A DNA stretch of 64,000 nucleotides from Rhodospirillaceae bacterium (GTDB lineage: Bacteria; Pseudomonadota; Alphaproteobacteria; Rhodospirillales; Rhodospirillaceae), in contig JAVJSV010000021.1 in NCBI GenBank assembly GCA_040219235.1, positions 1-64,000 on the forward strand, read 5' to 3'. The notes under the pieces were generated by a model. It was not told the origin of the DNA. It saw only the letters and a list, made by a program, of their open reading frames with translations, and made no database searches. Below, one piece after another: positions 28,470 through 42,958 of this stretch (position 1 is the stretch's first letter; every line of letters begins with the position of its first letter). Position numbers and translations under genes: made by a program.

Positions 28470-28503
28470 AAAAAAGCCCCCGCCTTTTTGCACAGACGGG
28501 GGC
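28470..28503 (-). terminator. Rho-independent terminator of the fecI-fecR-M24 operon
   Basis: On the minus strand, GCCCCCG (28503-28497) and CGGGGGC (28482-28476) form a GC-only stem with a 14-base loop, followed by TTTTTT (28475-28470). It lies about 30 bases after the M24 peptidase stop codon. Confidence 0.88.
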
Positions 28504-28533: not shown

Positions 28534-29916
28534 CTAGACGATGATCAGCGGGTCTTCTTCCGAGTTCAGGGGTTCGTAGCCGTCGTCTGTGATCAGCAGC
28601 AGGTCTTCGTTATGCCCCGCGCCGAAGCCGATTTCGATGTACGGCAGATCAACCGTAATCACCATGCCCGCTTTGAGCACAATGTCCTCGCCACCGCGCC
28701 AGGGGTTGCTGTCGTCATAGGGTTGATCGGTGTGCTGTAGGCCAAGCGAATGCGGGTTCACAATCAGCGTATCCGGGTTTGCGCCGGCTTTCTTGAAGGT
28801 CTCAAATCCTACCTTGCGGATATCCGAATATTTCACGCCAGGTTTGAGCATTGAAAAAATGGCTTCACGTGTCACGTGTTGGGCCTCTGCGCGCTGTATC
28901 ACGTCTTTGCTGGGTTCACCGACCACAATCGAGCGGGCAAAATCGCCGTGATACTGATGAAAGTCTGAGACCGCATCAATCAGAAACGGTTTGCCCGGCA
29001 CCACTTCGGCATCTGGAAAATAGCCAAGCGAAACACCCGCGATGAAGAAGGTCATGGCGTTCCCCCGCACCGCGCATTCGGCCAGGAACTTGCGCTCGAC
29101 GTCCGCAAAGGTCATGCCTTTTTCGATCGAGCGCGCGGTCGCCAATGTCGCTGCGGCATTCTTTTCACCGGCCAGGCGCATCAACGCAATTTCGGGTTCT
29201 GATTTGATATAGCGAATGCGCCGGAACAAATTATCGCCGTCGACAAACTCAATGTTGTCTGCCGCGCCGATCCGTTGCAACAAGTGTGCGATGCGCATGT
29301 CGTCCACGGCCACGCGGCCTTTGACGATGCCTGATTCTTTCATCGCCCGCGCCAGCGCCCATTCGGGTGTCGCGGAGGGTTGTGCGTTTGTTTGGCTCGT
29401 CGCCCAGCCTTGTTCCCGCTCGGTCAGTGGTACTCCATCTCGCACCGCAAGTCCGCCGGTGGCCGCGACCGGCTCTTCAGTTAAAGCTTTGCCGTTCTCT
29501 CCCAAGTAATCCGCTGTATTTGTTGGGGCTGAATAGGGCATGACCTCTGGGCTCCAGCGGTCTCCATTAGCGATGTCCCACATCTGAAGAGCTGTTGTGA
29601 CCAAGAAGGTGGGTTGATCCAGGTCCCGCGGAAGGGTTGCAAATGCAGGGTACTCCCAGCGCATTTTGGCGCCGATGGGCATGGTATTGGTCAGGTAGTA
29701 AATGTTGACCGGGTTCAGCGCCAGCATGCCGGCCAGGTCATATTCTTCCATCACCGCCTGCGCCTGGGCTGTGTTCATAAGTGGCTGGCGCAGGGCCTCC
29801 AATTCACTTCCCACAGGAGCAACAGTCACACCCGATTTTGCGGCCTGCGCTGATGTGGGCAACGCCGAGGCCGCAACGGCTGCGACTCCAGTCTTCAGCA
29901 TGTTGCGTCGTTCCAT
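28534..29916 (-). CDS. Tat-exported M24-family (Xaa-Pro peptidase-like) metallopeptidase
   Basis: GGAG precedes ATG 29916. A Tat-like signal (MERRNMLKTG, cleavage after AQA near residue 25) leads into a creatinase N-terminal-like domain (~55-225) and a C-terminal pita-bread domain. Metal ligands are LIDAVSDFHQYHGDFAR (two Asp, 11 apart), PHSLGLQHTDQPY (His) and GHNEDLLLIT (last Glu). The Glu expected in the TIEPG strand is Asp here (TVDLPY). It is the third gene of the fecI-fecR operon and is paralogous to the two M24 genes across the divergent TonB receptor. The family cleaves Xaa-Pro bonds or creatine-like amides. Confidence 0.85.
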   Translation of the reverse strand: MERRNMLKTGVAAVAASALPTSAQAAKSGVTVAPVGSELEALRQPLMNTAQAQAVMEEYDLAGMLALNPVNIYYLTNTMPIGAKMRWEYPAFATLPRDLDQPTFLVTTALQMWDIANGDRWSPEVMPYSAPTNTADYLGENGKALTEEPVAATGGLAVRDGVPLTEREQGWATSQTNAQPSATPEWALARAMKESGIVKGRVAVDDMRIAHLLQRIGAADNIEFVDGDNLFRRIRYIKSEPEIALMRLAGEKNAAATLATARSIEKGMTFADVERKFLAECAVRGNAMTFFIAGVSLGYFPDAEVVPGKPFLIDAVSDFHQYHGDFARSIVVGEPSKDVIQRAEAQHVTREAIFSMLKPGVKYSDIRKVGFETFKKAGANPDTLIVNPHSLGLQHTDQPYDDSNPWRGGEDIVLKAGMVITVDLPYIEIGFGAGHNEDLLLITDDGYEPLNSEEDPLIIV

Positions 29917-29972
29917 CTCAAATCTCCGGCAATGTGCTTTGACAGTCTCAGCAGACTGTCAATTTCTTTCGG

Positions 29973-31046
29973 TCACATCTGTGTTGCAGACAGATAAACC
30001 TTTGAATTTGGGTCCCGTTTTACGTCCACACCAAAGCTTTGCTCCAGAGCGTCAAACAGGGCGTCGACGTTGCCCACTTTAAAGAATCCGCCAAACCGCA
30101 GTTCATTCAGGACCGGGTCTTCGATGATGATGTCGATCTCTGTATAGCGGCTAACCTCTGCAATAACGTCAGACAGGGGTTCCCCGGCAAACGCCAGAAC
30201 ACCCTGACGCCAGGCCAGTTTGCGGTTCAGTTCGGGTTCGGGTATCACCTCAACTTGTTCCAGCGTCTCGGCAAATATGACCTTCTCGCCCGCGGTCAGG
30301 TTGGCAACCGTCGAGCGTATTGACGCTTGCTCGAGTGTTGCTGGATTCGCATCGGCCTCTGGTGAAAAGTAGAGCTTCACATCACCTTCGGTGACCGTCA
30401 CTTCAATGCCGGTTTCGCGCCGCATCACGGCAAAGGCTGTGCCGGTGGCTGTCACAACGCGTTCATCTGCATAGACGGAAAAGGGCCGCTCTTTGTCCTT
30501 GGCGACGGTAAAGTGTACTTCGCCTTTGTGCAGATACACATCGCGTTTCTGGTCTGAATATTCCACATCCACGTGACTGTTTGTATTTAACAGCAGAACG
30601 CTACCGTCAGGTAAGGTCACCGTTTTTTGCGTGCCAACCACAGTACGATGAGCCTGCATGTAATGGGGGTCCGAGAACGTAAAAGGCCCAACAAAGATAA
30701 CCAGCAGCACCATAGCCGCAACAGAGGCCAGTGACGCCACCACCCGATGCTTAAGCTCGAAACCAGCCCGCTCAAGCCATGTGGGATTCAGCGCGATATT
30801 CGAACGATCCTGCAAATCGCTAAGACCATCAAGGGTTCTCCACAGCCCCGACATTCCATCAAACGCAGCTTGATGTTCCGTGCTGGTGCCGCGCCAGGCG
30901 TCAAACGCACGTTTGTCTTCCACCGAGAGATCAGTTTTATCCATGCGGACAATCCAGGCGCTGGCCTCAGCTTCAAGTGTGCCCTGATCTGGAAAATCCA
31001 CCACCTTTGGGTCCGTCCCCGGCGTTGCTGTGTTATCGCGGTCCAT
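29973..31046 (-). CDS. fecR: FecR-family anti-sigma/signal-transducing protein
   Basis: A 357-residue protein with the standard layout: N-terminal cytoplasmic DUF4880-type domain (residues ~18-65, with DAWRGTSTEHQAAFDGM), one membrane helix near 95-115 (VASVAAMVLLVIFVG), a periplasmic FecR beta domain (~135-245, GEVHFTVAKDKERPFSVY) and a C-terminal STN-like domain (~290-350). FecR proteins pass a ligand signal from the STN domain of a TonB receptor to the sigma factor. It starts 2 bases after the sigma gene stop. The receptor at 31928 has the matching STN domain. Confidence 0.92.
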   Translation of the reverse strand: MDRDNTATPGTDPKVVDFPDQGTLEAEASAWIVRMDKTDLSVEDKRAFDAWRGTSTEHQAAFDGMSGLWRTLDGLSDLQDRSNIALNPTWLERAGFELKHRVVASLASVAAMVLLVIFVGPFTFSDPHYMQAHRTVVGTQKTVTLPDGSVLLLNTNSHVDVEYSDQKRDVYLHKGEVHFTVAKDKERPFSVYADERVVTATGTAFAVMRRETGIEVTVTEGDVKLYFSPEADANPATLEQASIRSTVANLTAGEKVIFAETLEQVEVIPEPELNRKLAWRQGVLAFAGEPLSDVIAEVSRYTEIDIIIEDPVLNELRFGGFFKVGNVDALFDALEQSFGVDVKRDPNSKVYLSATQM

Positions 31047-31048
31047 GT

Positions 31049-31645
31049 TTAGGTCTTGTGCCCATTTGTTTTAGCCTGCGGTTTCATCTGCTGCACATTT
31101 GATCCCTGTTTTCTTTCTTTAGCGCCAAAGTCAGCCGGGTCATGCCCTTGTCGTCTTAGAACGTCGATGCATTTTGACAACCCCGTCGCCACATGCTTCT
31201 CAACCGTGCTTTCTGAGAGGGACAGATGGTGTGCAATCTCTTTGTACGACAAACCTTCCATTTTTCTCATGACAAATGCGCGACGACACTGTTTCGGAAG
31301 TGTCATAATGGCCTGAGACACGATCACGAGCTGTTGTCGCGCCGACACTTCATCTTCGACAGAAATTTGGCCGTCATCTGTTAAGACCTCTGAGTCGGCA
31401 AAATCCTCTATATAATCTGTCTCGGAAAATGATTTTCTGGCCAGAGAGTTCAGCGCAAGATTCTTTGCAACGCGGAAAAGATAAGCTTTTGGCGCGCGAA
31501 TATCGCTTTTCGATTCTGCGGCGAACGCCTGCAAGAACGTTTCTTGAGCAATATCTTCAATTTGGTGACGGCGAGACAAAAACCGGGACAGAAAGCGTCG
31601 CAAAGCGGCTTCGTTCTCAATGAAGGATCTCAGAATTCTAGACAT
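31049..31645 (-). CDS. fecI: FecI-like ECF sigma factor
   Basis: A 198-residue ECF sigma factor. Region 2 (~8-75) includes RRHQIEDIAQETFLQAF and KAYLFRVAKNLALN. Region 4 (~115-170) includes LPKQCRRAFVMRKMEGLSYKEIAHHLSLSES, a clear helix-turn-helix. A ~25-residue basic tail rich in Lys and Gln follows. It is the first gene of fecI-fecR-M24. It is expected to direct transcription of the divergent TonB receptor and perhaps its own operon. The 282-base gap between them holds a repeated 12-mer (TTCACCTGTCTC) that could be part of such control. Confidence 0.92.
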   Translation of the reverse strand: MSRILRSFIENEAALRRFLSRFLSRRHQIEDIAQETFLQAFAAESKSDIRAPKAYLFRVAKNLALNSLARKSFSETDYIEDFADSEVLTDDGQISVEDEVSARQQLVIVSQAIMTLPKQCRRAFVMRKMEGLSYKEIAHHLSLSESTVEKHVATGLSKCIDVLRRQGHDPADFGAKERKQGSNVQQMKPQAKTNGHKT

Positions 31646-31653
31646 CGCTGGAT

Positions 31654-31665
31654 TTCACCTGTCTC
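31654..31665 (+). promoter_or_regulatory. 12-mer TTCACCTGTCTC, copy 1 (next to fecI start)
   Basis: An exact 12-base element 8 bases upstream of the fecI start codon on the fecI side of the divergent gap, in plus orientation. The other copy lies 233 bases away beside the receptor gene. Confidence 0.5.
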
Positions 31666-31886
31666 GTATCGAAGACACAAAATGAGCGGTATTGCCTCAT
31701 TTACCAGCTTTTTCGAGCGGTGGTGGCTTCGTTTTCTCTCCCCACACTGCTACGGCATGGTCAGTTATGCAATCCTAGCCATGCAACCCTAAGCCACGTA
31801 GCGGCGACATATCTCCGCCGCACAGCGGCGATGCAAAGAGGAGCCATATGAAAAAATGTGCAATTCCTTATGGTGGGTTTCCCAAC

Positions 31887-31898
31887 TTCACCTGTCTC
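31887..31898 (+). promoter_or_regulatory. 12-mer TTCACCTGTCTC, copy 2 (upstream of TonB receptor)
   Basis: An exact copy of the 12-mer found beside fecI, 30 bases before the TonB-receptor start codon. The position would suit a -35 element or activator site for the receptor promoter. The link to the FecI sigma factor is inference. Confidence 0.5.
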
Positions 31899-31927
31899 AA
31901 TACATAAGGCTGGTGAAACAGTGCTGA

Positions 31928-34810
31928 ATGATTGCTGACACCATGCTGGTTAGAAAGGATAGGCAGACCCTGCGATACGTCATTCCATTTATGTGGTTTG
32001 CGATATGCGTTTCGTTGGGTTCTGGTTCAAGTTTCGCCGTGTCTGATCAAAATCAACGCTATGATTTGAACATTACGCAGCCCAACTTGGGCGACGCAGC
32101 TGAGGCCCTGGCTAAGCAGACCGGGCTAGAGCTTCTCTTTCCGTTCGAACTGGCAGAGACAGGGGGAATTAACCCTGTGGTTGGCACATACAGCATACCG
32201 GATGCGCTCTCAGAAATGCTGAGAGATACGGGTTTCTCAGGCAGCCTAACAACAAGCGGTGTCATTACGATTTACCGCGGGGCAAACGCTGAAGACAGCG
32301 CACCGGAGGGAACTATGGAAACAACTACTCGGCCTGCAACAGGGCAAAACCGAACATCATTACTGGGCAGATTGCTGTCCTCTGTGGCCGCCGTGCTGAC
32401 CGTCGCAACGGCCACACCGGACTCTCAAGCTGTGGCACAGCAGGTCGCCCTTGAAGAAATCGTCGTCACGGCGCGTAAACGGGATGAGCGATTGATAGAT
32501 ATCCCATTATCCGTTCAGGCTTTTTCAGCGGCTGATCTTTCTGCGGCTGGGATTGATGACCTGGAGGATTTGACATTATTTTCGCCTGGGCTTGATTACA
32601 ATAGCCAGTCCTCAACGTCATTTACCGGGCGGTATATCCCGGCCATTCGTTTCCGCGGCTTGACTACCGTCAGTACGTTGCCGTCGAACCAGGTCGGTTC
32701 CCTCTTTGTTGACGGTGTTTTTGTCTTGGGTGGTGCGCAATCCATTGGTTTTGAAGATGTGGAGCGCGTTGAAATCATTAAGGGTCCGCAGGCGGCCTTC
32801 TTTGGCCGGTCGACCTTTGGTGGCGCCATCAATTACATCACTGCTGATCCAGCGGATGAGTTTGGCGGCAAGGTTTCTGCTGAGTACAGCCCCAATCACG
32901 GCAGTTACCGCGGCTCTGTTACAGTTGAAGGCCCTTTGGTTGAGGGCCTGTTGAGTGGCCGTCTCACCGCGTCCGGTTTTGAAAACGGCGGCTATGAAAC
33001 CGCCAATGACGGTGGAACGCTTGGCGAAGAAACCACAGATGCCGTTCACGCCAGCTTGTTGTTCACACCATCGGAAACGGTGCGCATTAAGGTTCGCGCG
33101 TCGTACATCGAAGATGAAGACAGCCAGCCAGCCGTTACAACCATCCAGTTTTTTAACAAAAGCAACTGTGCTGCGGGAACGCCATTGACTGTGCTCGACG
33201 CTTCAGGTGCGTCTCGTAATGTTTCTCTCCAGGGTGATTATTGGTGCGGCGGCCTGCCGGAAGATGTGCCGGTCACGGCTAATACCACGTTCCCCGTTTT
33301 TCCAGCCGTCGGCAACCTCCCTGAGCTTGATGTGCGTGACCTGTTTGTTGGGAACAGTCTTGGCATCGACGAAATCGACCGGGCACCATTTCTGGATCAC
33401 TTTGGCTTGCGCCGTCAGACGGTGCGGCTGGCAACAACCTTCGATGTCGAGGCGTCGGATGCCGTCACTGTTTCTGGCAGCTTGGCCTATAACGATCAGA
33501 AAATTCGACGGATCAACGACCAAGATTATACCGACGCGGAGTCGGTCTACATTGGAGCTCCGAGCTTCTTTGAAGACTATTCTGGTGAAATCCGTGCTCA
33601 GTATGATGATGGCGGAAAACTGCGTGGCCTGATTGGGACCAATTACTATAAACAAAAGATCAAGGCGGCTTTCGGCAATGCGATCGAAGCCACCAACCAG
33701 TTGTCACTCGATTTCCTGCCAACGGCACCGACGATTCGTGTGACCGGGGCTCAGAATTCCGGCAACAACGACGATAAGATCAGAACTTTCGGCATCTTCG
33801 GCTCTCTTGAATACGACATCCTTGATAACTTGACCGCCACCCTGGAAGGGCGTTGGCAGAACGACAAGGTCACGCAATTTGGGGGTCAATTCCTGACGCC
33901 GGGTGCGGCACAGTCTCTGACGTCTAAGAAATTCCTGCCACGTGCAATTCTCAGCTATCGCCCGATGGATGACATGACGACCTATGTCAGTTATTCCCAA
34001 GGCACATTGCCGGGACAGTTTAATGGCACGTTTATAAACTTGTCAGCCGCAGACAAAGCCATCGTACAGGCACAGATTCCAGGCCTGCAGGACTCCATTC
34101 CACCAGAAAAACTTGAAAGCTATGAAATTGGCTTGAAGCAAAGTCTTCTTGAAGGCCGGGCGACGTATGCGTTGGCGGCTTACATGATGGATTGGACCAA
34201 CATGAAGTCGGCGGTCTCGTTTATCCCGCCAGGTGCGACAGGTTTGCAGGGGGCGTTGATCTCAGGAACATCCGAGATCAAGGGCGTTGAGTTTGAGGCC
34301 AACTGGCTTGTTTCAGAGGCCTTCGATCTCGGGTTCACAGCCAACTATACCGACGCCACGTATAATGATTTTGCCATCTCTGGCGTCAATCAGTTGTTTG
34401 GCCTGAGCAATGCGGAAGGGTATCGCGTTGATGGCAACACCCTGCCTGCGTTCCCAAAATGGAGCGGCAGTCTCTCTGGCACATACACCGGAACAGTCAA
34501 CGCTGATTGGGATTGGTACACCCGTGCGGATGTGGCTTATCAGGGCAAGGCTTATGCTGACCCGTCGAACATTAACTGGGTCAAAGCCTATACGCTTGTG
34601 AACCTTAAGGTCGGGATCGAAAACGAAGGCACTACGCTCGAGTTCTTCGCCAACAACCTGTTTGACGAGACTGGATGGGCCAGCGGAACGACAGGTCTTG
34701 ACCTGGGTGTCGTGCCAGTTCTGTTCTCGAACCTGTTTGTCAGGCGCGGTGCTGTGGTTACCGCCCTGCGTGACCGTGAAGTTGGCGTGAGAGCGACCTG
34801 GTCGTTTTAA
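31928..34810 (+). CDS. TonB-dependent transducer with N-terminal STN signalling domain
   Basis: A 960-residue receptor. After a signal peptide (~1-38) comes an STN domain (~40-120, with AAEALAKQTGLELLFPFELA and GVITIYRG), the part that talks to FecR. A ~50-residue linker contains a second hydrophobic, signal-like stretch (LLSSVAAVLTVATATP) before the TonB box (EEIVVTARKRDE), the plug (~175-300, with GVFVLGGAQSIGFEDVERV and IKGPQAAFFGR) and the barrel ending in ATWSF. The internal signal-like stretch suggests an STN module was fused in front of a complete receptor precursor. ATG 31943 is an alternative start. Divergent fecI-fecR and three M24 peptidases point to a peptide-like ligand. Confidence 0.93.
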   Translation: MIADTMLVRKDRQTLRYVIPFMWFAICVSLGSGSSFAVSDQNQRYDLNITQPNLGDAAEALAKQTGLELLFPFELAETGGINPVVGTYSIPDALSEMLRDTGFSGSLTTSGVITIYRGANAEDSAPEGTMETTTRPATGQNRTSLLGRLLSSVAAVLTVATATPDSQAVAQQVALEEIVVTARKRDERLIDIPLSVQAFSAADLSAAGIDDLEDLTLFSPGLDYNSQSSTSFTGRYIPAIRFRGLTTVSTLPSNQVGSLFVDGVFVLGGAQSIGFEDVERVEIIKGPQAAFFGRSTFGGAINYITADPADEFGGKVSAEYSPNHGSYRGSVTVEGPLVEGLLSGRLTASGFENGGYETANDGGTLGEETTDAVHASLLFTPSETVRIKVRASYIEDEDSQPAVTTIQFFNKSNCAAGTPLTVLDASGASRNVSLQGDYWCGGLPEDVPVTANTTFPVFPAVGNLPELDVRDLFVGNSLGIDEIDRAPFLDHFGLRRQTVRLATTFDVEASDAVTVSGSLAYNDQKIRRINDQDYTDAESVYIGAPSFFEDYSGEIRAQYDDGGKLRGLIGTNYYKQKIKAAFGNAIEATNQLSLDFLPTAPTIRVTGAQNSGNNDDKIRTFGIFGSLEYDILDNLTATLEGRWQNDKVTQFGGQFLTPGAAQSLTSKKFLPRAILSYRPMDDMTTYVSYSQGTLPGQFNGTFINLSAADKAIVQAQIPGLQDSIPPEKLESYEIGLKQSLLEGRATYALAAYMMDWTNMKSAVSFIPPGATGLQGALISGTSEIKGVEFEANWLVSEAFDLGFTANYTDATYNDFAISGVNQLFGLSNAEGYRVDGNTLPAFPKWSGSLSGTYTGTVNADWDWYTRADVAYQGKAYADPSNINWVKAYTLVNLKVGIENEGTTLEFFANNLFDETGWASGTTGLDLGVVPVLFSNLFVRRGAVVTALRDREVGVRATWSF

Positions 34811-34836
34811 CCTCACCCGCTTAGAAACATGAGATG

Positions 34837-34875
34837 CGGCCGCCCGTTTGCCACAAGAGCAGGGGCGGCCGTTTT
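34837..34875 (+). terminator. Rho-independent terminator after the STN TonB receptor
   Basis: CGGCCGCCC at 34837-34845 pairs perfectly with GGGCGGCCG at 34863-34871, followed by TTTT. It lies 26 bases after the receptor stop codon, so the M24 genes downstream probably have their own promoter or depend on readthrough. Confidence 0.88.
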
Positions 34876-34946
34876 CATTGCGATACGCTATCAATCACGT
34901 TCAACTAAGACCCAGCCGCATCCCTTGCGTACATAGGAGATTTGTC

Positions 34947-36335
34947 ATGATCAACCGCCGAACGGCTCTCACCAGCCTCACGGGTGCGGCCACCGCCGCC
35001 GCAGCAGCCTCAATCCCGGCACATGCCCGAGCTGACGCTAAGCCTGCCGGTTATGCCGTGCCCAAGCCTGAAATCGACGGTAAGCTGCTGGTCAACCGAC
35101 CGCGCGCCCATGATGTGCTGGAGCGGTTTGGTCTTGAAGGCATGATCGCGCTGGACCCCATCAACGTCTACTACCTCACGAATGTGGTCACCATCGGTGT
35201 GAAATTCCTGTCGCAGTATCCGGGCTTCGCAACTTACGCCCGCGATCCAGAGCAGCCGATTTATCTGGTTTCTGGCTCCTCATCGGCCTGGGACATTGCC
35301 AACGGCGACCGGGAAACGGCGGAGCTTATGCCCTACGGGTTCGGGGGCTGGAATGAAGCGGAACTCAACTCAAATGGCATCCCTACGGACCCTGGCAACG
35401 GCAGCACGCGGAATTACTACGTCCGGAGCGATGTTGAACTGACACTCCGGGAAAAGCAGTGGCAAGCGGCGCAAGAGCGCGTGTCGGCAAATCTCGCTGC
35501 CGGTGCGGCTTGGGGCTTGGCCCGAGCGCTCAAAGCGCAAGGCATTACCAAGGGCAAAGTCGCGGTTGATGACATGCGCATCGCCGATTTTCTGGCCCAG
35601 ACGGATTTGGTAGATGTCGAATGTGTGCCGGGCTACGGCATTTTCCAGCTCATTCGTATGGTCAAGACGGAACAGGAACTGGCTTATCAGCGCGTCGGCG
35701 GACGTAACAATGGCGATGCAGGGCTGGCAACCATCCATGCCATTGAAGCCGGCATGACGCACAAAGACATCGAGCAGATTTTCCTTATGGAATGCGCCAA
35801 GCGTGGCAATCATGTGGACGGCTTTATCGTCGGCTTTCCCGGCGGCGGATTCCCCGACGGCGAGATGGTTGCCGGTAAACCCTTTCTGATTGATGCGGTC
35901 AGCAATTACCGCGGCTACATGGGGGACTTTGCCCGCACCTTCATCATCGGCGAGCCCTCAAAAGAGGTGGAGACGCGCCGCCGTGCCAACCAACTTGCGC
36001 GGGAGGCTGTGTTTGATGCCATCAAGCCGGGGGTGAAATATGACACTCTGCGCAAAATCGGCTTTGACACCATGGTCAAAAATGGCATGCCCGAGCATGC
36101 TGTCTTTGTGACTCCCCACAGCGTTGGCCTACAGCATGGTGACAACCCCTACAGCATGCCCGAATTCGGAATTAGGTCCTTTGAGCATGTCTTAGAAGAA
36201 AACATGGTGCTGACCGTCGACCTGCCCTATCTGGAAGTCGGATTTGGCTGTGGTCATAACGAGGACCTCTTCCGGGTGACAAAAACCGGATACGAGGTCT
36301 TGAACACAGAAGAAGAGCCGTTCATCCTGTTGTAA
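34947..36335 (+). CDS. Tat-exported M24-family metallopeptidase-like protein, second paralogue
   Basis: ATG 34947 follows AGGAGA; the longer open frame upstream runs through the terminator and is not coding. A Tat signal (MINRRTALTS, cleavage after AHARA) is followed by a creatinase-type N domain and a pita-bread domain. Metal residues: LIDAVSNYRGYMGDFAR (two Asp), PHSVGLQHGDNPY (His), GHNEDLFRVT (Glu). As in its paralogue at 28534, the central Glu is Asp (TVDLPY). Both proteins also share the sequence ITKGKVAVDDMRIAD and MTHKDIEQIFL-type segments, so they are close relatives. It lies 48 bases before the third paralogue. Confidence 0.85.
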   Translation: MINRRTALTSLTGAATAAAAASIPAHARADAKPAGYAVPKPEIDGKLLVNRPRAHDVLERFGLEGMIALDPINVYYLTNVVTIGVKFLSQYPGFATYARDPEQPIYLVSGSSSAWDIANGDRETAELMPYGFGGWNEAELNSNGIPTDPGNGSTRNYYVRSDVELTLREKQWQAAQERVSANLAAGAAWGLARALKAQGITKGKVAVDDMRIADFLAQTDLVDVECVPGYGIFQLIRMVKTEQELAYQRVGGRNNGDAGLATIHAIEAGMTHKDIEQIFLMECAKRGNHVDGFIVGFPGGGFPDGEMVAGKPFLIDAVSNYRGYMGDFARTFIIGEPSKEVETRRRANQLAREAVFDAIKPGVKYDTLRKIGFDTMVKNGMPEHAVFVTPHSVGLQHGDNPYSMPEFGIRSFEHVLEENMVLTVDLPYLEVGFGCGHNEDLFRVTKTGYEVLNTEEEPFILL

Positions 36336-36383
36336 GATGGTTTGAGGCTATACGCGCCCAGACGCTTCGACAGGAGAACTGCC

Positions 36384-37766
36384 ATGATTGAACGCCGACA
36401 TGTTCTTGGAGGCTTGGTTGCTGGTGTTGCTGGAACAGCAGGGGCAGCCTCAAGCCTGATCCCGTCCGCACAGGCAAAAGGGCCAGCTATGTCACTCAGT
36501 GCCAGCGTGCCACCACCGGTTTTTGGCCCCCGCATGAACTTTGAGCAGGCTGATAAAATCATGGCCGAGCTTGGGCTCGATGCCATTGTCGTGGGCGCGG
36601 GCACCAATCTGTATCATGCAACCGGTCTGGATCTCACAGCGACGAAGATGGGCCATACGCCGAGTGTGTATGCGCTGATTACCCGCCAGGAAGGACAGCG
36701 CCTGTCGCTCATCGCGCCCGCCTTTTTATATTACTACACCATCGCTATGGATCATCAGCATCTAGACTACCCAGCTTATTTGTATGAGGCACCAGGGAGT
36801 GCCGGAGAGGATGCCGAATTGGGTCTTAGCGATTTACCGCTGTATCCCGATTTGCAGCAAGCCCCCCTGGATGAGATTGAAAAAACGCGCCTTAGTATTA
36901 TCGAGCGCGCCGTGCGTGCTGAAGCCGCCCGCCCGAACCTTGTTTTTGCTTTGCGCAAAGCGTTGGTAGATACGGGCGTAGCAGCAGGACGTATCGCCGC
37001 CGATGTCGAGCCCGTTATGCGCTCTGTGCTGGAGGCGACCGATGCCACCAAAGCTACAGTCGTGTCAGCCGATGATGCTCTGCGGCGTATCCGGCCAGTG
37101 AAGTCCGAAGCTGAAATCACTTTGATGCGCTATGCCGCTCAGGCCAATGCGGACGGTGCCCTGCAAGCCGCGCGCGCCGTGCGGGCCGGGGCCAATGTGC
37201 GTGAGTTGCGGGCGTCTTATTTTGCGGCGGTGGCGTCTCGCGGGATGCGCGGTGTGTTTATGGTCATTGATCGCGTGAGCTCGCCCACCTACGAGGCCCA
37301 ACTGCGCGATGGCCAGTGTTTCTCGATTGATTGTGTCAGCGAATATATGGGCTATCACGGCGACTTTGCCCGGGCTGTTTATATTGGAGAACCTGCTAAG
37401 CGGATGCAGCGGGTGACGGATATCACCGGCAAAGCCTGGGATTCGATTCGTGAGCAAATCCGGCCTGGCCTGCGCTTCTCAGAAATCCGCGCCATGGGTA
37501 AGACAGCCCTCGAAAAACTGGGTGCGGACTTCTCCATCTCGTTTACGCCCCACAGTGTTGGTCTTTATCACGCGGATCACGTCGGCAATGCGGGGTCTCC
37601 GCCGCGCGAAGACATCGTGCTCGAAAAGAACATGGTGCTCAGCGTCGATTGTCCGATGGGGGCCACTGGAATGGGGGGGTCATCCCACTTGGAAGATCTT
37701 ATGCTCATCACGGAAGACGGGGCGGAGCCGATTAACGATATCGGCAGTCAAACGGTGATGGTCTAG
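36384..37766 (+). CDS. Tat-exported M24-family metallopeptidase-like protein, third and most diverged paralogue
   Basis: ATG 36384 follows AGGAGAA. A Tat signal (MIERRHVLGG, cleavage near PSAQA) precedes the two-domain M24 layout. Metal residues: SIDCVSEYMGYHGDFAR, PHSVGLYHADHVG and HLEDLMLIT; the central Glu position is again Asp (SVDCP). The N-terminal domain differs clearly from the other two copies, which suggests a different peptide specificity. It probably forms an operon with the preceding gene. Creatinase-, dimethylpropiothetin-lyase- or ectoine-hydrolase-like activities are alternatives to Xaa-Pro cleavage. Confidence 0.83.
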   Translation: MIERRHVLGGLVAGVAGTAGAASSLIPSAQAKGPAMSLSASVPPPVFGPRMNFEQADKIMAELGLDAIVVGAGTNLYHATGLDLTATKMGHTPSVYALITRQEGQRLSLIAPAFLYYYTIAMDHQHLDYPAYLYEAPGSAGEDAELGLSDLPLYPDLQQAPLDEIEKTRLSIIERAVRAEAARPNLVFALRKALVDTGVAAGRIAADVEPVMRSVLEATDATKATVVSADDALRRIRPVKSEAEITLMRYAAQANADGALQAARAVRAGANVRELRASYFAAVASRGMRGVFMVIDRVSSPTYEAQLRDGQCFSIDCVSEYMGYHGDFARAVYIGEPAKRMQRVTDITGKAWDSIREQIRPGLRFSEIRAMGKTALEKLGADFSISFTPHSVGLYHADHVGNAGSPPREDIVLEKNMVLSVDCPMGATGMGGSSHLEDLMLITEDGAEPINDIGSQTVMV

Positions 37767-39090: not shown

Positions 39091-40398
39091 CTACATCAAA
39101 CCCAGGGCTTTGGGCAGCCACAGGGTGAGTACAGGGAACAAGGTGAGAATGATCAACCTGACAAAGTCAGACAACAAGAACGGCCAAATGCCGGCATAGA
39201 CCGTGCTGAGAGACACATCTTTATTCATGCCGTGCATGACAAACACATTCAAACCAATGGGCGGTGTGATCATGCCCATTTCCATCACCACCACGTTAAT
39301 CACGCCCCACCAGATGGGGTCGTAGCCCATGCCCGTGATCAACGGGAACACGAACGGCAGCGTGATCACCATGGCCGCCACCGTATCGAAAATCGCCCCG
39401 AGAATAATGTACATGGCTTGCAGCATCAAAATCACCAGAAGCGGTTGAAGCCCGAGGTTTTCAATCGAACTGACGATAATGTCCGGCAGATGTGACAGCG
39501 TAATGGCGTAGGAGAAAATCGATGCGCCGATAATGATCAAGTAGATCAAGGCTGTGCTCGCGGCTGTCTCTTTAAGATTGGCGAAGAATACACTGCGGTT
39601 GAGATGCCCGCGCAACGCGGTAAAGGCAATGGCCACGGTTGCGCCCACGGCGGCTGCTTCATTCACCGTAAAGAGACCAGAGTAAATACCGCCAGAAACG
39701 ATCACCGCCAGGGTCACAACGCCCCAGCTTTTTTTGAGGATTTGGCGGCGCTCTGACCACGGAACCCGCTCTGCCGCGGGGCCTGAGTCTGGTGAGATTT
39801 TCACGTAGGTGAACACCGTGATCATGTACAAAAAGACAGCAATCAGCGCTGGTCCGAGGGCGGCGACAAAGAGCGCCGTGACAAACTGTTCTGTGAGAAT
39901 GGCGTAAAGCACCAGCAACACAGAGGGCGGCACGATCACCCCTAGCGTAGAGCCAGCGGCGATGGACCCCGTTGACAGGCGTCGCGCATAGCCGCGTTTG
40001 TCCATTTCTGGCAGGGCAATGCGGGTCATGGTGGCCGTGGTCGCCAGGGACGAACCGCAGACCGCACCAAATCCAGCGCAGGTCGCAACAGTCGCCATGG
40101 CCAGTCCGCCCTTGCGATGCCCCAGGAACGCCTGCGCAAGACGGTACAGATCGCCGGACAAACCCGCTGCGGCGGCAAAATTTCCCATCAACAGAAACAG
40201 CGCGATGATGGCCAATTCCTGGCTGGCAATGGCCGCCGAAGGTTCAATACCAAAGAGCGCGATGGCAGGCTCAAAGCCGATGATCACGCCCGTTCCAATA
40301 AACCCCGCAATGGCCATGGCGATGCCAATAGGCACATGAAGCGCGATCATCACAAACATTCCGGCGACGACTAGGCCGCCAATGACAGGAGGTTCCAT
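39091..40398 (-). CDS. dctM: TRAP transporter large permease (DctM family)
   Basis: A 435-residue membrane protein with about 12-13 hydrophobic segments and DctM signatures: the N-terminal HVPIGIAMAIAGFIG, CAGFGAVCGSSLATTATM, GSIAAGSTLGVIVPPSV and the C-terminal MITPPIGLNVFVMHGM. It carries Na+-driven import of a solute delivered by the periplasmic DctP protein. It is 13 bases after dctQ. Substrate is not predictable from the permease; carboxylates are the commonest in the family. Confidence 0.95.
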   Translation of the reverse strand: MEPPVIGGLVVAGMFVMIALHVPIGIAMAIAGFIGTGVIIGFEPAIALFGIEPSAAIASQELAIIALFLLMGNFAAAAGLSGDLYRLAQAFLGHRKGGLAMATVATCAGFGAVCGSSLATTATMTRIALPEMDKRGYARRLSTGSIAAGSTLGVIVPPSVLLVLYAILTEQFVTALFVAALGPALIAVFLYMITVFTYVKISPDSGPAAERVPWSERRQILKKSWGVVTLAVIVSGGIYSGLFTVNEAAAVGATVAIAFTALRGHLNRSVFFANLKETAASTALIYLIIIGASIFSYAITLSHLPDIIVSSIENLGLQPLLVILMLQAMYIILGAIFDTVAAMVITLPFVFPLITGMGYDPIWWGVINVVVMEMGMITPPIGLNVFVMHGMNKDVSLSTVYAGIWPFLLSDFVRLIILTLFPVLTLWLPKALGLM

Positions 40399-40411
40399 GT
40401 TTTATGCGGTC

Positions 40412-40951
40412 CTAGAGTGATTCTGCTTCATGTTCGATGGGTTTGCCAGCCTTGGCCGCTGACACGGTTTCTCTCAGCACCCAACTTTGGACCAAAACAC
40501 AAGCGACCATAATCAGGCTGACGACGCTCCAGACCGGCGTGACAGACCACTCCAATGTTGATGTCGTGCGGTTTGTGGCGGCGTAATCAATAGTAAAGGC
40601 AACAAATTGCCAGGCGGTCAGCACAAAGAAGGTCAGCATGAATGCTGCGCCAATGACATCAAGCTTGCTGTGCGCTTTGGGCCCTAAGATTTTTCCAAGC
40701 ACACGTACAGTCACAGCGTTGCCTTTTTTTAAGCCAGCTGGAAAGCAGCTGGCGATAACAATAGCAAAGGCTACTTCTTCGATATCATTCAGGCCCGGGA
40801 TGCGAGGCAGACCCATGTAGCGCAGAAACACATCGACCACGGTCATGAACGCAATAATGACTAGACCGGTAAATCCGATGATGGCCATAGTATCCACAGC
40901 ACGATCTAGGAGTTGCGTCGAGGTGCGGGTGTCGTGTGAGGTCTCAGACAT
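40412..40951 (-). CDS. dctQ: TRAP transporter small permease (DctQ family)
   Basis: A 179-residue protein with four hydrophobic segments, the standard DctQ layout; FRYMGLPRIPGLNDIEEVAF and the CFPAGLKKGNAVTV region match the family. Its ATG overlaps the dctP stop by one base (TGATG), so the two are translationally coupled. It forms the membrane complex with DctM. Confidence 0.92.
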   Translation of the reverse strand: MSETSHDTRTSTQLLDRAVDTMAIIGFTGLVIIAFMTVVDVFLRYMGLPRIPGLNDIEEVAFAIVIASCFPAGLKKGNAVTVRVLGKILGPKAHSKLDVIGAAFMLTFFVLTAWQFVAFTIDYAATNRTTSTLEWSVTPVWSVVSLIMVACVLVQSWVLRETVSAAKAGKPIEHEAESL

Positions 40952-41985
40952 CAGGATTGGCGCTCCCGACGCCGCAGGTCTTTGAGAATGTCTTGGATCG
41001 CTTCATAAGTTTCGGCACCAAATGGCGTGCGCTCGGCCCAGGTGTCTGCAATCGGTTTGACATAGGTTTGCATTTCTTCGAGTTCTGCAGGATCGGCATC
41101 AACAAAAATAAGATGTTCGTCTGCTCTCAGTTGGGCTGAAATCTCGGCCTGTTTTTGATCGTACGCTTGCCCACCCAGCAACGCGATATAATCGCCGCTG
41201 TTGTCATTGATGATTTGTTGCAGATCAGCAGGAACCTGCTCCCACTTATCTTTGTTCATCATGATCCCAAAGGTGACTGTGCCAAGAGGGGCGGTGATGA
41301 CATAACTGGTTTCCCGGTAAGTCTGGAAGGTATTAATGGCGATCCAGCCTTGAATTGCACCATCAATCGTGCCGCGCCTTAGCGCTTCAACGGCATCCGC
41401 TGGGTGCAGCGCTTCGGGCACAGAATCCATCTTGCTGAGAAAGTCACCCTCAAGGCGCCCCACGGAACGGATTTTCATGCGGGCAATGTCTTTGTAACTT
41501 TTGATGGGATCGCGTGTATACAAATTGCTGGGTTCTGCAGTCCACAGTCCGATGAGTTTGACATCTTCAAACCCTTTCAACAGACCACGCTCATATAAAC
41601 GCCAAGCCACCAGGCTCGCTTCTGTCGATGACCGCATCATAAAGGGCAGTTCAAACGCTTGAAGTTGAGGGAACTGACCAGGCGTGTAACTGGGTTGTAC
41701 CAGACCAATGTCAGTGATGCCTGCCTTTACCAGATCAAATTGCTTGTAAGGATTGCGACCCAAGCCACCACCCCAAAAAGTTTCAAACTTGATGCGTCCG
41801 TTTGAGGCTTCAGTGATGCGCTCCATCCAGGGTTTATAAATATGCGCAACGCTATGACTTAGCGGAGACAGATAGGCAGAAACCCGGAGCGTCATTGTCT
41901 CTTTAGGCTGTGCGTGAGCAGGCAGGCCAATAAAACCACAGATGAAGAGACTGAAGGAAACGGTCAACGTATTAAAAAAGCGCAT
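40951..41985 (-). CDS. dctP: TRAP transporter periplasmic solute-binding protein (DctP family)
   Basis: I chose ATG 41985 because GGAGC lies just upstream and it starts the signal peptide (MRFFNTLTVSFSLFIC, cleavage after AHA); the longer frame runs into the upstream gene. The mature protein shows the TAXI/DctP binding fold: FETFWGGGLGRNPYKQFDLV, then PSNLYTRDPIKSYKDIARMKIRSVGR with the Arg that usually grips a carboxylate, and GTIDGAIQGWIAI. A carboxylic-acid-type substrate is therefore likely. It starts 13 bases after the response-regulator gene, so regulation and transport genes share a transcript. Confidence 0.93.
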   Translation of the reverse strand: MRFFNTLTVSFSLFICGFIGLPAHAQPKETMTLRVSAYLSPLSHSVAHIYKPWMERITEASNGRIKFETFWGGGLGRNPYKQFDLVKAGITDIGLVQPSYTPGQFPQLQAFELPFMMRSSTEASLVAWRLYERGLLKGFEDVKLIGLWTAEPSNLYTRDPIKSYKDIARMKIRSVGRLEGDFLSKMDSVPEALHPADAVEALRRGTIDGAIQGWIAINTFQTYRETSYVITAPLGTVTFGIMMNKDKWEQVPADLQQIINDNSGDYIALLGGQAYDQKQAEISAQLRADEHLIFVDADPAELEEMQTYVKPIADTWAERTPFGAETYEAIQDILKDLRRRERQS

Positions 41986-41998
41986 CTTTGCTCCCATT

Positions 41999-42958
41999 TT
42001 AGATATCCACGGAATTACCTGCGATGCGTCCGTCATATTTTGCGGTCAACTCATCTTCTTCATTTTGCTTGCGTTGGGCGGCAGAGTCGATGGCCATGCG
42101 GAACGCCTGTGAGAGCTTTTGGATCAAATCAATGTCGCCGTCTTCCAAAGATTCGTAGTTGATCTCCATCATCGCAACGTTCTCTGCCAAAGACAGGCAG
42201 AGACTTTCCAAAGAATTATCTTTTAAGGTTTGGGCCATATTTGCAGCTTCGCGCAATATAGCCGTGAGGGCTGTGAAGTTATCGCGCAGCTCTTCTGTAA
42301 TGTGTCCGCTTTTATGGGCGTCGAGAATCACGTCACACAGTTGACCCATTTTCATGCTTTGACTTGTAAGTTGGGCTTCAACCACTGCGCTGAGAGAGTC
42401 TGTAATGGCTTCTTTGAGTTCCCAAGGTTCAAATTTACGACCATCCGCTTTTTCGCGCATCGTGTTTAACACATTGACACGGCGCGCACCTGGGTGGCTG
42501 ACCTTATCACTCTTGCGATCGGGGCCAACGTACTCGGACGTCGCTACAAACGGCTGACGGTGGTAGGTGATCAGGCGAAGACGCTCATGTATTTTTTTCG
42601 GATCGAGCGGTTTGATAACAACGTCATCGGCACCGACCTCAATGGCTTTTTGAATGTTGTGGCCATTCCGTTGGCCGACCAATACGCTGATAATGATAAA
42701 CGGGTTCCCGCCTAGCTGGTTAAAACGCACCTCTTTGACGACTTCGAAAACATCCGGGTCAAAGTCATCAGACAAAACCAATAAATCGGGGGGCACTTCG
42801 AACATCAACGTACGCAGACTCGCCACATTGGCATGTGTCGAGATGTTCTTAATTCCTTCAGAGAGGAACATCTCCCGTAACTTTTGACGTTGGTGATAGT
42901 CTTTTTCACCAATGTAGACGGTTATGGAAGCGAGGTTTGCGCGGTCCAGTTGGGACAT
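41999..42958 (-). CDS. Response-regulator-like (REC-domain) protein leading the TRAP operon
   Basis: A 319-residue protein. Residues ~12-130 form a CheY-like receiver domain: VYIGEKDY in place of the usual acidic pair, LLVLSDDFDP with the phospho-acceptor Asp, a Ser in FIIISVLVG and Lys in VVIKPLDP. Then comes the short YVGPDRKSD motif, and a helical C-terminal half (~165-319) of unknown fold without a recognisable DNA-binding domain. A paralogue lies at 43157. No histidine kinase is nearby. It may act as an adaptor tied to the transporter. It lies 13 bases upstream of dctP. Confidence 0.75.
   Translation of the reverse strand: MSQLDRANLASITVYIGEKDYHQRQKLREMFLSEGIKNISTHANVASLRTLMFEVPPDLLVLSDDFDPDVFEVVKEVRFNQLGGNPFIIISVLVGQRNGHNIQKAIEVGADDVVIKPLDPKKIHERLRLITYHRQPFVATSEYVGPDRKSDKVSHPGARRVNVLNTMREKADGRKFEPWELKEAITDSLSAVVEAQLTSQSMKMGQLCDVILDAHKSGHITEELRDNFTALTAILREAANMAQTLKDNSLESLCLSLAENVAMMEINYESLEDGDIDLIQKLSQAFRMAIDSAAQRKQNEEDELTAKYDGRIAGNSVDI

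Follow-up and report, generated by a model that had tools for sequence, protein, structure and literature searches.

The systems described so far that lie closest to the present locus are the M24 metallopeptidases, with their canonical metal ligands Asp-Asp-His-Glu-Glu, and surface signalling of the FecI/FecR/FecA type. In the latter, an extracytoplasmic function (ECF) sigma factor, a FecR protein and a TonB-dependent receptor with an STN signalling region are encoded by adjacent genes, and regulators of the FecR type cleave themselves at a Gly-Thr bond (PMC9249621). Both kinds of element meet at positions 28,534 to 37,766 of the stretch analysed here (the window, 64,000 nucleotides of contig JAVJSV010000021.1 from the 3.97 Mb genome of a Rhodospirillaceae bacterium, assembly GCA_040219235.1), where fecI, fecR and a receptor gene lie between three M24 genes (M24-A, M24-B and M24-C). 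The six genes named by the first-pass annotation were all found in place, and since each has significant Pfam domain matches, the six-gene reading is not due to chance. We interpret the locus, with a probability of about 0.62, as a standard FecI/FecR/receptor cassette interleaved in the promoter region of an older, divergent M24 cluster.

The comparison with related genomes carries this interpretation. Matches to M24-B were found in 22 of 61 genomes (E 0.001), and in seven of the other genomes (G001-G006 and G009) M24-A and M24-B are adjacent and divergent, their matches lying 177 to 1,077 bp apart; the genome collection assigns G001-G006 to the genus of the window's genome and G009 to another. 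M24-C is intact in six of the seven, and G005 keeps a 48-bit remnant. None of the seven has fecI, fecR or a receptor gene in the gap between M24-A and M24-B, nor a receptor gene within range of the cluster. In G001 and G002 the gap contains a protein of 264 residues, whose G001 copy was tested and has a methyltransferase domain. What appear by eye to be shortened or broken versions of this protein lie in the gaps of G003, G004, G005 and G006. The co-conservation of the M24 genes with fecIR or the receptor, on which the first-pass annotation had staked its proposal, was therefore not found: all seven relatives carry M24-A and M24-B without the cassette.

The survey of the family (73 genomes) gives the same picture, with 50 places matching M24-B (E 1e-90) in 18 genomes and 60 places matching FecR (E 1e-15) in 31. 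Strong M24 and FecR matches occur together in just five genomes (G000, G001, G002, G030 and G105, with seven FecR places) and on a single contig, the window's own, as judged by eye from printed lists. Thirteen of the 18 M24-bearing genomes have no match to the window's FecR at E 1e-15, and a laxer domain search revealed weak FecR-domain proteins in several of them. Translated searches (tblastn), on which the locus counts are based rather than on a selection of open reading frames (ORFs), gave no match to FecI, FecR or STN, even at E 1e-3, in 113 other M24-bearing stretches (L027-L089 and L103-L152; flanks are mostly 4 to 10 kb, some shortened by contig ends, some genomes are present twice via two collections, and three stretches have only M24 matches below 150 bits). 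Such matches are confined to the five other stretches fetched for FecR, and these are likewise devoid of M24 matches. On the neighbourhood, family-wide and tblastn comparisons a link between FecIR and M24 as a conserved system was rejected, and because relatives retain the enzymes without the switch, the M24 cluster and the fecIR cassette probably did not evolve as one system.

The cassette itself is regular in composition. The sigma factor has regions 2 and 4 (Sigma70_r2 and Sigma70_r4) and its gene directly precedes fecR. The FecR protein (DUF4880, FecR and FecR_C in Pfam) has the layout of its family, with a cytosolic amino-terminal domain, a membrane stretch, a periplasmic FecR domain and the Gly-Thr bond, the membrane stretch and the bond having been located by reading the sequence. 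The window's FecR has no close relative among the proteins found, the best others being 28-36% identical over long stretches and at most 40% identical over 127 residues. The receptor contains a plug domain and a TonB barrel, and ahead of the plug lies an STN-like region that is weak in Pfam (PF07660, E 7.4e-4, 19.7 bits versus a cut-off of 28.4). The same amino-terminal region matches, with 44 bits, that of another receptor from this genome (in L098), whose own STN is over the Pfam cut-off (30.7 bits). In contrast to the described systems, the receptor gene is divergent from fecIR and the cassette, in this one genome, is surrounded by M24 enzyme genes. The FecI part is ordinary in type and unusual in its location.

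The three M24 proteins match Peptidase_M24 with E values of 1.2e-21, 5e-21 and 1.6e-24; M24-A and M24-B are 47-49% identical, and M24-C is 27-32% identical to either. The most likely starts are ATG 34947 for M24-B, rather than TTG 34848, and ATG 36384 for M24-C. Twin-arginine motifs can be read in the leaders (ERRNMLK, NRRTALT and ERRHVLG), and a crude RR pattern is present in the first 60 residues of 82 of 106 members of the clade to which they belong, the rest being partly truncated and partly leaderless; the three proteins of the window are probably exported. The window's genome encodes nine PF00557 proteins, of which seven, in five loci, belong to this clade; 13 clade-rich genomes have 5 to 12 matches each, fragments counted. 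In the alignment of these 106 sequences (unique by their last 200 residues), the five ligand positions are, among readable rows, Asp in 105 of 105, Asp in 105 of 105, His in 104 of 104, Asp in 102 of 103 and Glu in 103 of 103, the sole Glu at the fourth position being that of L140. Two residues before the last Glu there is a His in 100 of 104 rows and a Phe in four. A wider profile search yielded 127 unique ORFs with, at the fourth position, 105 Asp, 10 Glu, nine gaps and three degenerate sites; the 10 Glu-bearing ORFs are L140 and nine M24 proteins from outside the clade, three of these nine lacking the second Asp. Among 12 readable homologues outside the clade, nine have Glu as the fourth ligand and three have other residues and a degenerate site, and Glu also fills this position in each of the five solved enzymes shown with the profile. 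Asp thus replaces one of the five residues expected of an M24 metallopeptidase, and judging from the alignment the clade is a variant form of M24 in which this Asp is fixed nearly throughout.

The fold is predicted to be retained. An AlphaFold model of M24-B (predicted local distance difference test score, pLDDT, 84.8) has the pita-bread fold and is matched by Foldseek to M24B enzymes with probability 1.00; its structural matches include prolidases, DoeA, DddP, creatinase and SPT16. Tree and alignment identify M24-A, M24-B and M24-C as old paralogues sharing the same altered metal site, and the earlier suggestion that three peptidases act on successive bonds finds no support. The literature matches listed, from open-licence articles, contained neither an M24 clade of this kind nor a combination of FecI with M24. 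Relatives of M24-B that are 68-71% identical occur in metagenome-assembled genomes (MAGs) of Gammaproteobacteria (L052-L056 and L058) and group beside G009 in the tree, suggesting transfer between classes.

All five M24 loci of the window's genome have a TonB receptor gene at most 2 kb from an M24 gene, the distances in L034-L037 being 1,295, 104, 1,970 and 245 bp, and in the four other loci the receptors are without fecIR. Given 48 plug domains in the genome, the chance per locus is roughly 10%, an estimate that does not amount to a test. In a set of 13 genomes, a receptor lies no more than 4 kb away in 19 of 53 loci, where a rough expectation would be 5 to 9; orthologous loci of related genomes are counted repeatedly here and are hence non-independent. 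These 53 loci have at least 4 kb on both sides (15 of 68 with a shorter flank were left out), omit the window's locus and include the four others of its genome, and the receptors were sought with five queries. A TonB receptor followed by one or two glyoxalase-fold proteins and then M24 (as in L034:3414-8523) is a recurrent order, seen within the genus as well as in several further MAG stretches of Rhodospirillaceae. Neighbours of the clade elsewhere, picked by hand from the loci without a background count, include glyoxalase/dioxygenase-fold proteins, flavin amine oxidases, a TauD dioxygenase, FAD-binding oxidoreductases, an arylmalonate-decarboxylase-like protein, solute-binding proteins and an IclR regulator. 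These neighbourhoods look more like small-molecule catabolism than like iron uptake or bulk protein digestion. They resemble TonB-receptor catabolic loci, of which the carbohydrate loci of Xanthomonas are reportedly an example, in that a receptor adjoins degradative enzymes, and differ from them in having M24-fold proteins instead of glycan-active enzymes.

Between the genes of the window, several elements bear on transcription (Table 1). The gap between the receptor gene and M24-B (136 nt) contains a hairpin with a folding energy of -29.9 kcal/mol (z -3.98), equalled by none of 200 shuffled sequences. From this terminator-like hairpin, M24-B and M24-C are probably insulated from the receptor gene and keep a promoter of their own, and as the palindrome between fecR and M24-A is not followed by a T run, M24-A could be co-transcribed with fecIR. 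Directly after M24-A, a strong GC-rich hairpin with a T tail (28476-28503) is likely to be its terminator. In the region between fecI and the receptor gene, the 12-nt sequence TTCACCTGTCTC is present as a perfect direct repeat (31654-31665 and 31887-31898); no further copy occurs in the window, even with one mismatch allowed, and two of 100 shuffled sequences had as many copies. Every match to it in the five other FecIR stretches has at least two mismatches, and the repeat was discarded as a FecI promoter motif common to such stretches. A spaced TGTCA motif was sought in the window and none was present.

Table 1. Features of the locus and its surroundings (window coordinates).
Feature	Position	Strand	Remarks
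M24-A	28534..29916	-	Twin-arginine leader; M24-fold putative enzyme with Asp-for-Glu metal site
Palindrome between fecR and M24-A	29939..29962		Perfect, 10 bp; T run absent in the fecR-to-M24-A direction
fecR (anti-sigma/regulator)	29973..31046	-	DUF4880, hydrophobic stretch from residue 102, FecR, FecR_C, Gly-Thr at residue 202
fecI (FecI-type ECF sigma factor)	31049..31645	-	2 nt upstream of fecR
Divergent intergenic region	31646..31927		Two perfect copies of TTCACCTGTCTC (31654, 31887)
TonB-dependent receptor	31928..34810	+	Amino-terminal STN-like signalling region
Terminator-like hairpin, receptor/M24-B gap	34837..34875	+	Perfect 9-bp GC arms (34837-34845 and 34863-34871), then TTTT
M24-B	34947..36335	+	Twin-arginine leader; ORF opens at TTG 34848
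M24-C	36384..37766	+	Twin-arginine leader; ORF opens at TTG 36342
Transporter genes (M, Q, P), from their sequences and without a family search taken to be TRAP/Dct-type	39091..42036	-	Conserved neighbour of the M24 cluster in 7 of 7 relatives

In the history we favour, an old divergent cluster, with M24-A facing M24-B and M24-C, would have been kept beside the presumed TRAP-type (tripartite ATP-independent periplasmic) transporter in the genus and in one neighbouring genus, and the cassette of ECF sigma factor, FecR and STN-type receptor, which occupies the A-B intergenic region only in this genome among those seen, was probably inserted on the window's lineage. The placement is such that fecIR runs into M24-A and the receptor gene towards M24-B. 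M24-A may now be read through from fecIR, and M24-B and M24-C would be largely shielded by the hairpin, with a promoter predicted in the last ~70 nt before 34947. A gain in this lineage is favoured because all seven relatives, one of them from another genus, are without the cassette. That the ancestral cluster instead already had the cassette, and the other lineages lost it in a single event, is unlikely, even though for M24-C the tree (FastTree only) has the window diverging ahead of G009, outside both G009 and the genus, making a single loss nearly as simple as a gain. According to the collection, the window's genome shares its genus with G001-G006 while G009 belongs to a different one, matches between the window's short intergenic pieces and the A-B gaps of the relatives are 10-11 nt at most, and several of these gaps hold the methyltransferase gene or its remains. 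The tree is one of several points that weigh against insertion into an older cluster. No insertion scar was found at the edges of the cassette, where direct repeats of at least 7 nt and a target duplication were sought and one 9-nt inverted match was taken as chance. The G+C content of fecI (0.474), fecR (0.540) and the receptor gene (0.533) versus 0.572 to 0.577 for the M24 genes counts for little, because low values (0.48 to 0.55) are likewise seen in seven further TonB receptor genes of the genome. The spacing of only 56 nt from fecR to M24-A favours some co-transcription of the two. The hairpin before M24-B, which has 17 nt between its perfect arms, is not among the 15 sites of a simple terminator scan, which covers loops of 3-8 nt only and barely exceeds shuffled sequences (mean 11.4, sd 3.1). 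Finally, 53 of the 60 FecR places are in genomes without strong M24 matches and therefore say little about a link with M24.

A single FecI regulon that detects a peptide or amide ligand, takes it up and trims it, with the three M24 proteins as its dedicated enzymes, had been the proposal of the first-pass annotation. It would fit the physical interleaving of the genes in two divergent arms (fecI-fecR-M24-A and receptor-M24-B-M24-C), the perfect 12-nt repeat in their shared intergenic region and the recurrence of the M24 clade beside other TonB receptors, but it is improbable, with co-conservation in no relative seen, a hairpin between the receptor gene and M24-B, and a repeat that has no match closer than two mismatches in other FecIR stretches. 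What stands of the proposed joining is the arrangement in this genome and the association of the clade with TonB receptors, which elsewhere lack fecIR; the comparative data give no support to one dedicated peptide-sensing, importing and trimming system. For the question of how surface-signalling cassettes may gain targets by settling between two divergent promoters, the locus is a clear natural test case. Of more interest than the switch are the enzymes, on account of their altered metal site. As probable hydrolases or lyases of the periplasm, they would depend on metal and cleave an amide, peptide or similar bond in small imported molecules. With M24B peptidases such as prolidase and Xaa-Pro aminopeptidase, whose structural-match rows are 13-21% identical to M24-B, they have in common the pita-bread fold and all but one of the five metal ligands; they differ in the Asp for the fourth Glu, in a His for the Arg two residues before the last Glu and in the twin-arginine leader. 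Peptidases are the nearest curated names for the clade, and a plain prolidase was rejected on profile cut-offs and ligand positions. An ectoine hydrolase of the DoeA type was also rejected (at most 37.4 bits, versus NCBIfam cut-offs of 575-613). The substitution of a core metal ligand across nearly the whole clade could mean that the metal centre is broken and that the proteins serve in binding or as a scaffold, and SPT16, an M24-fold protein without peptidase function, is among the structural matches of M24-B. This is improbable, since Asp can still bind metal and the other four ligand positions do not vary among readable rows, nor do further His and Asp residues, the pattern expected of an active site under selection. 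Least probable is a lyase similar to DddP, acting on a sulfonium compound or other osmolyte instead of a peptide. DddP is a lyase of dimethylsulfoniopropionate (DMSP) with the M24 fold and the ligands Asp295, Asp297, Asp307, His371, Glu406 and Glu421 (PMC4108388). The likeness consists of this fold and of distant profile similarity (NCBIfam NF043017; 38.9 bits for M24-A and 35.3 bits for M24-C, M24-B being unlisted), far under the cut-off of 600 bits, which is exceeded in none of the 61 genomes. Relative to the DddP ligands given there, Asp427 is at the position of Glu406, and Val320, two residues after the first Asp, is at that of Asp297 (equivalences set by hand, window:34941 numbering); a DMSP lyase identity was dismissed on these differences and on the profile score. 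Should the clade prove active, it would show that the metal centre of M24 can accommodate a fixed Glu-to-Asp exchange and has multiplied in uncultured bacteria. More tentatively, and with the balance of probability on the other side, the clade could be a novel class of metalloenzymes of the periplasm, with Asp-Asp-His-Asp-Glu as their centre, acting on small molecules imported via TonB receptors, and in this species a FecI/FecR/receptor cassette could have slipped into the divergent promoter region and captured part of their regulation.

The two other FecI/FecR/TonB-receptor systems of the genome (L098:5866-11970 and L099:5481-16978) also adjoin genes for proteins with twin-arginine-type leaders. 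In L098, a flavin amine oxidase gene overlaps fecI by 4 bp, while L099 contains an FAD protein and four tandem look-alike proteins, of which two were tested and both have methyltransferase domains. Methyltransferase-domain proteins with twin-arginine-type leaders are encoded at positions 177-1376 of the window and, as the four tandem copies, at L099:10072-15227; the methyl donor S-adenosylmethionine is not expected in the periplasm, which makes exported methyltransferases odd.

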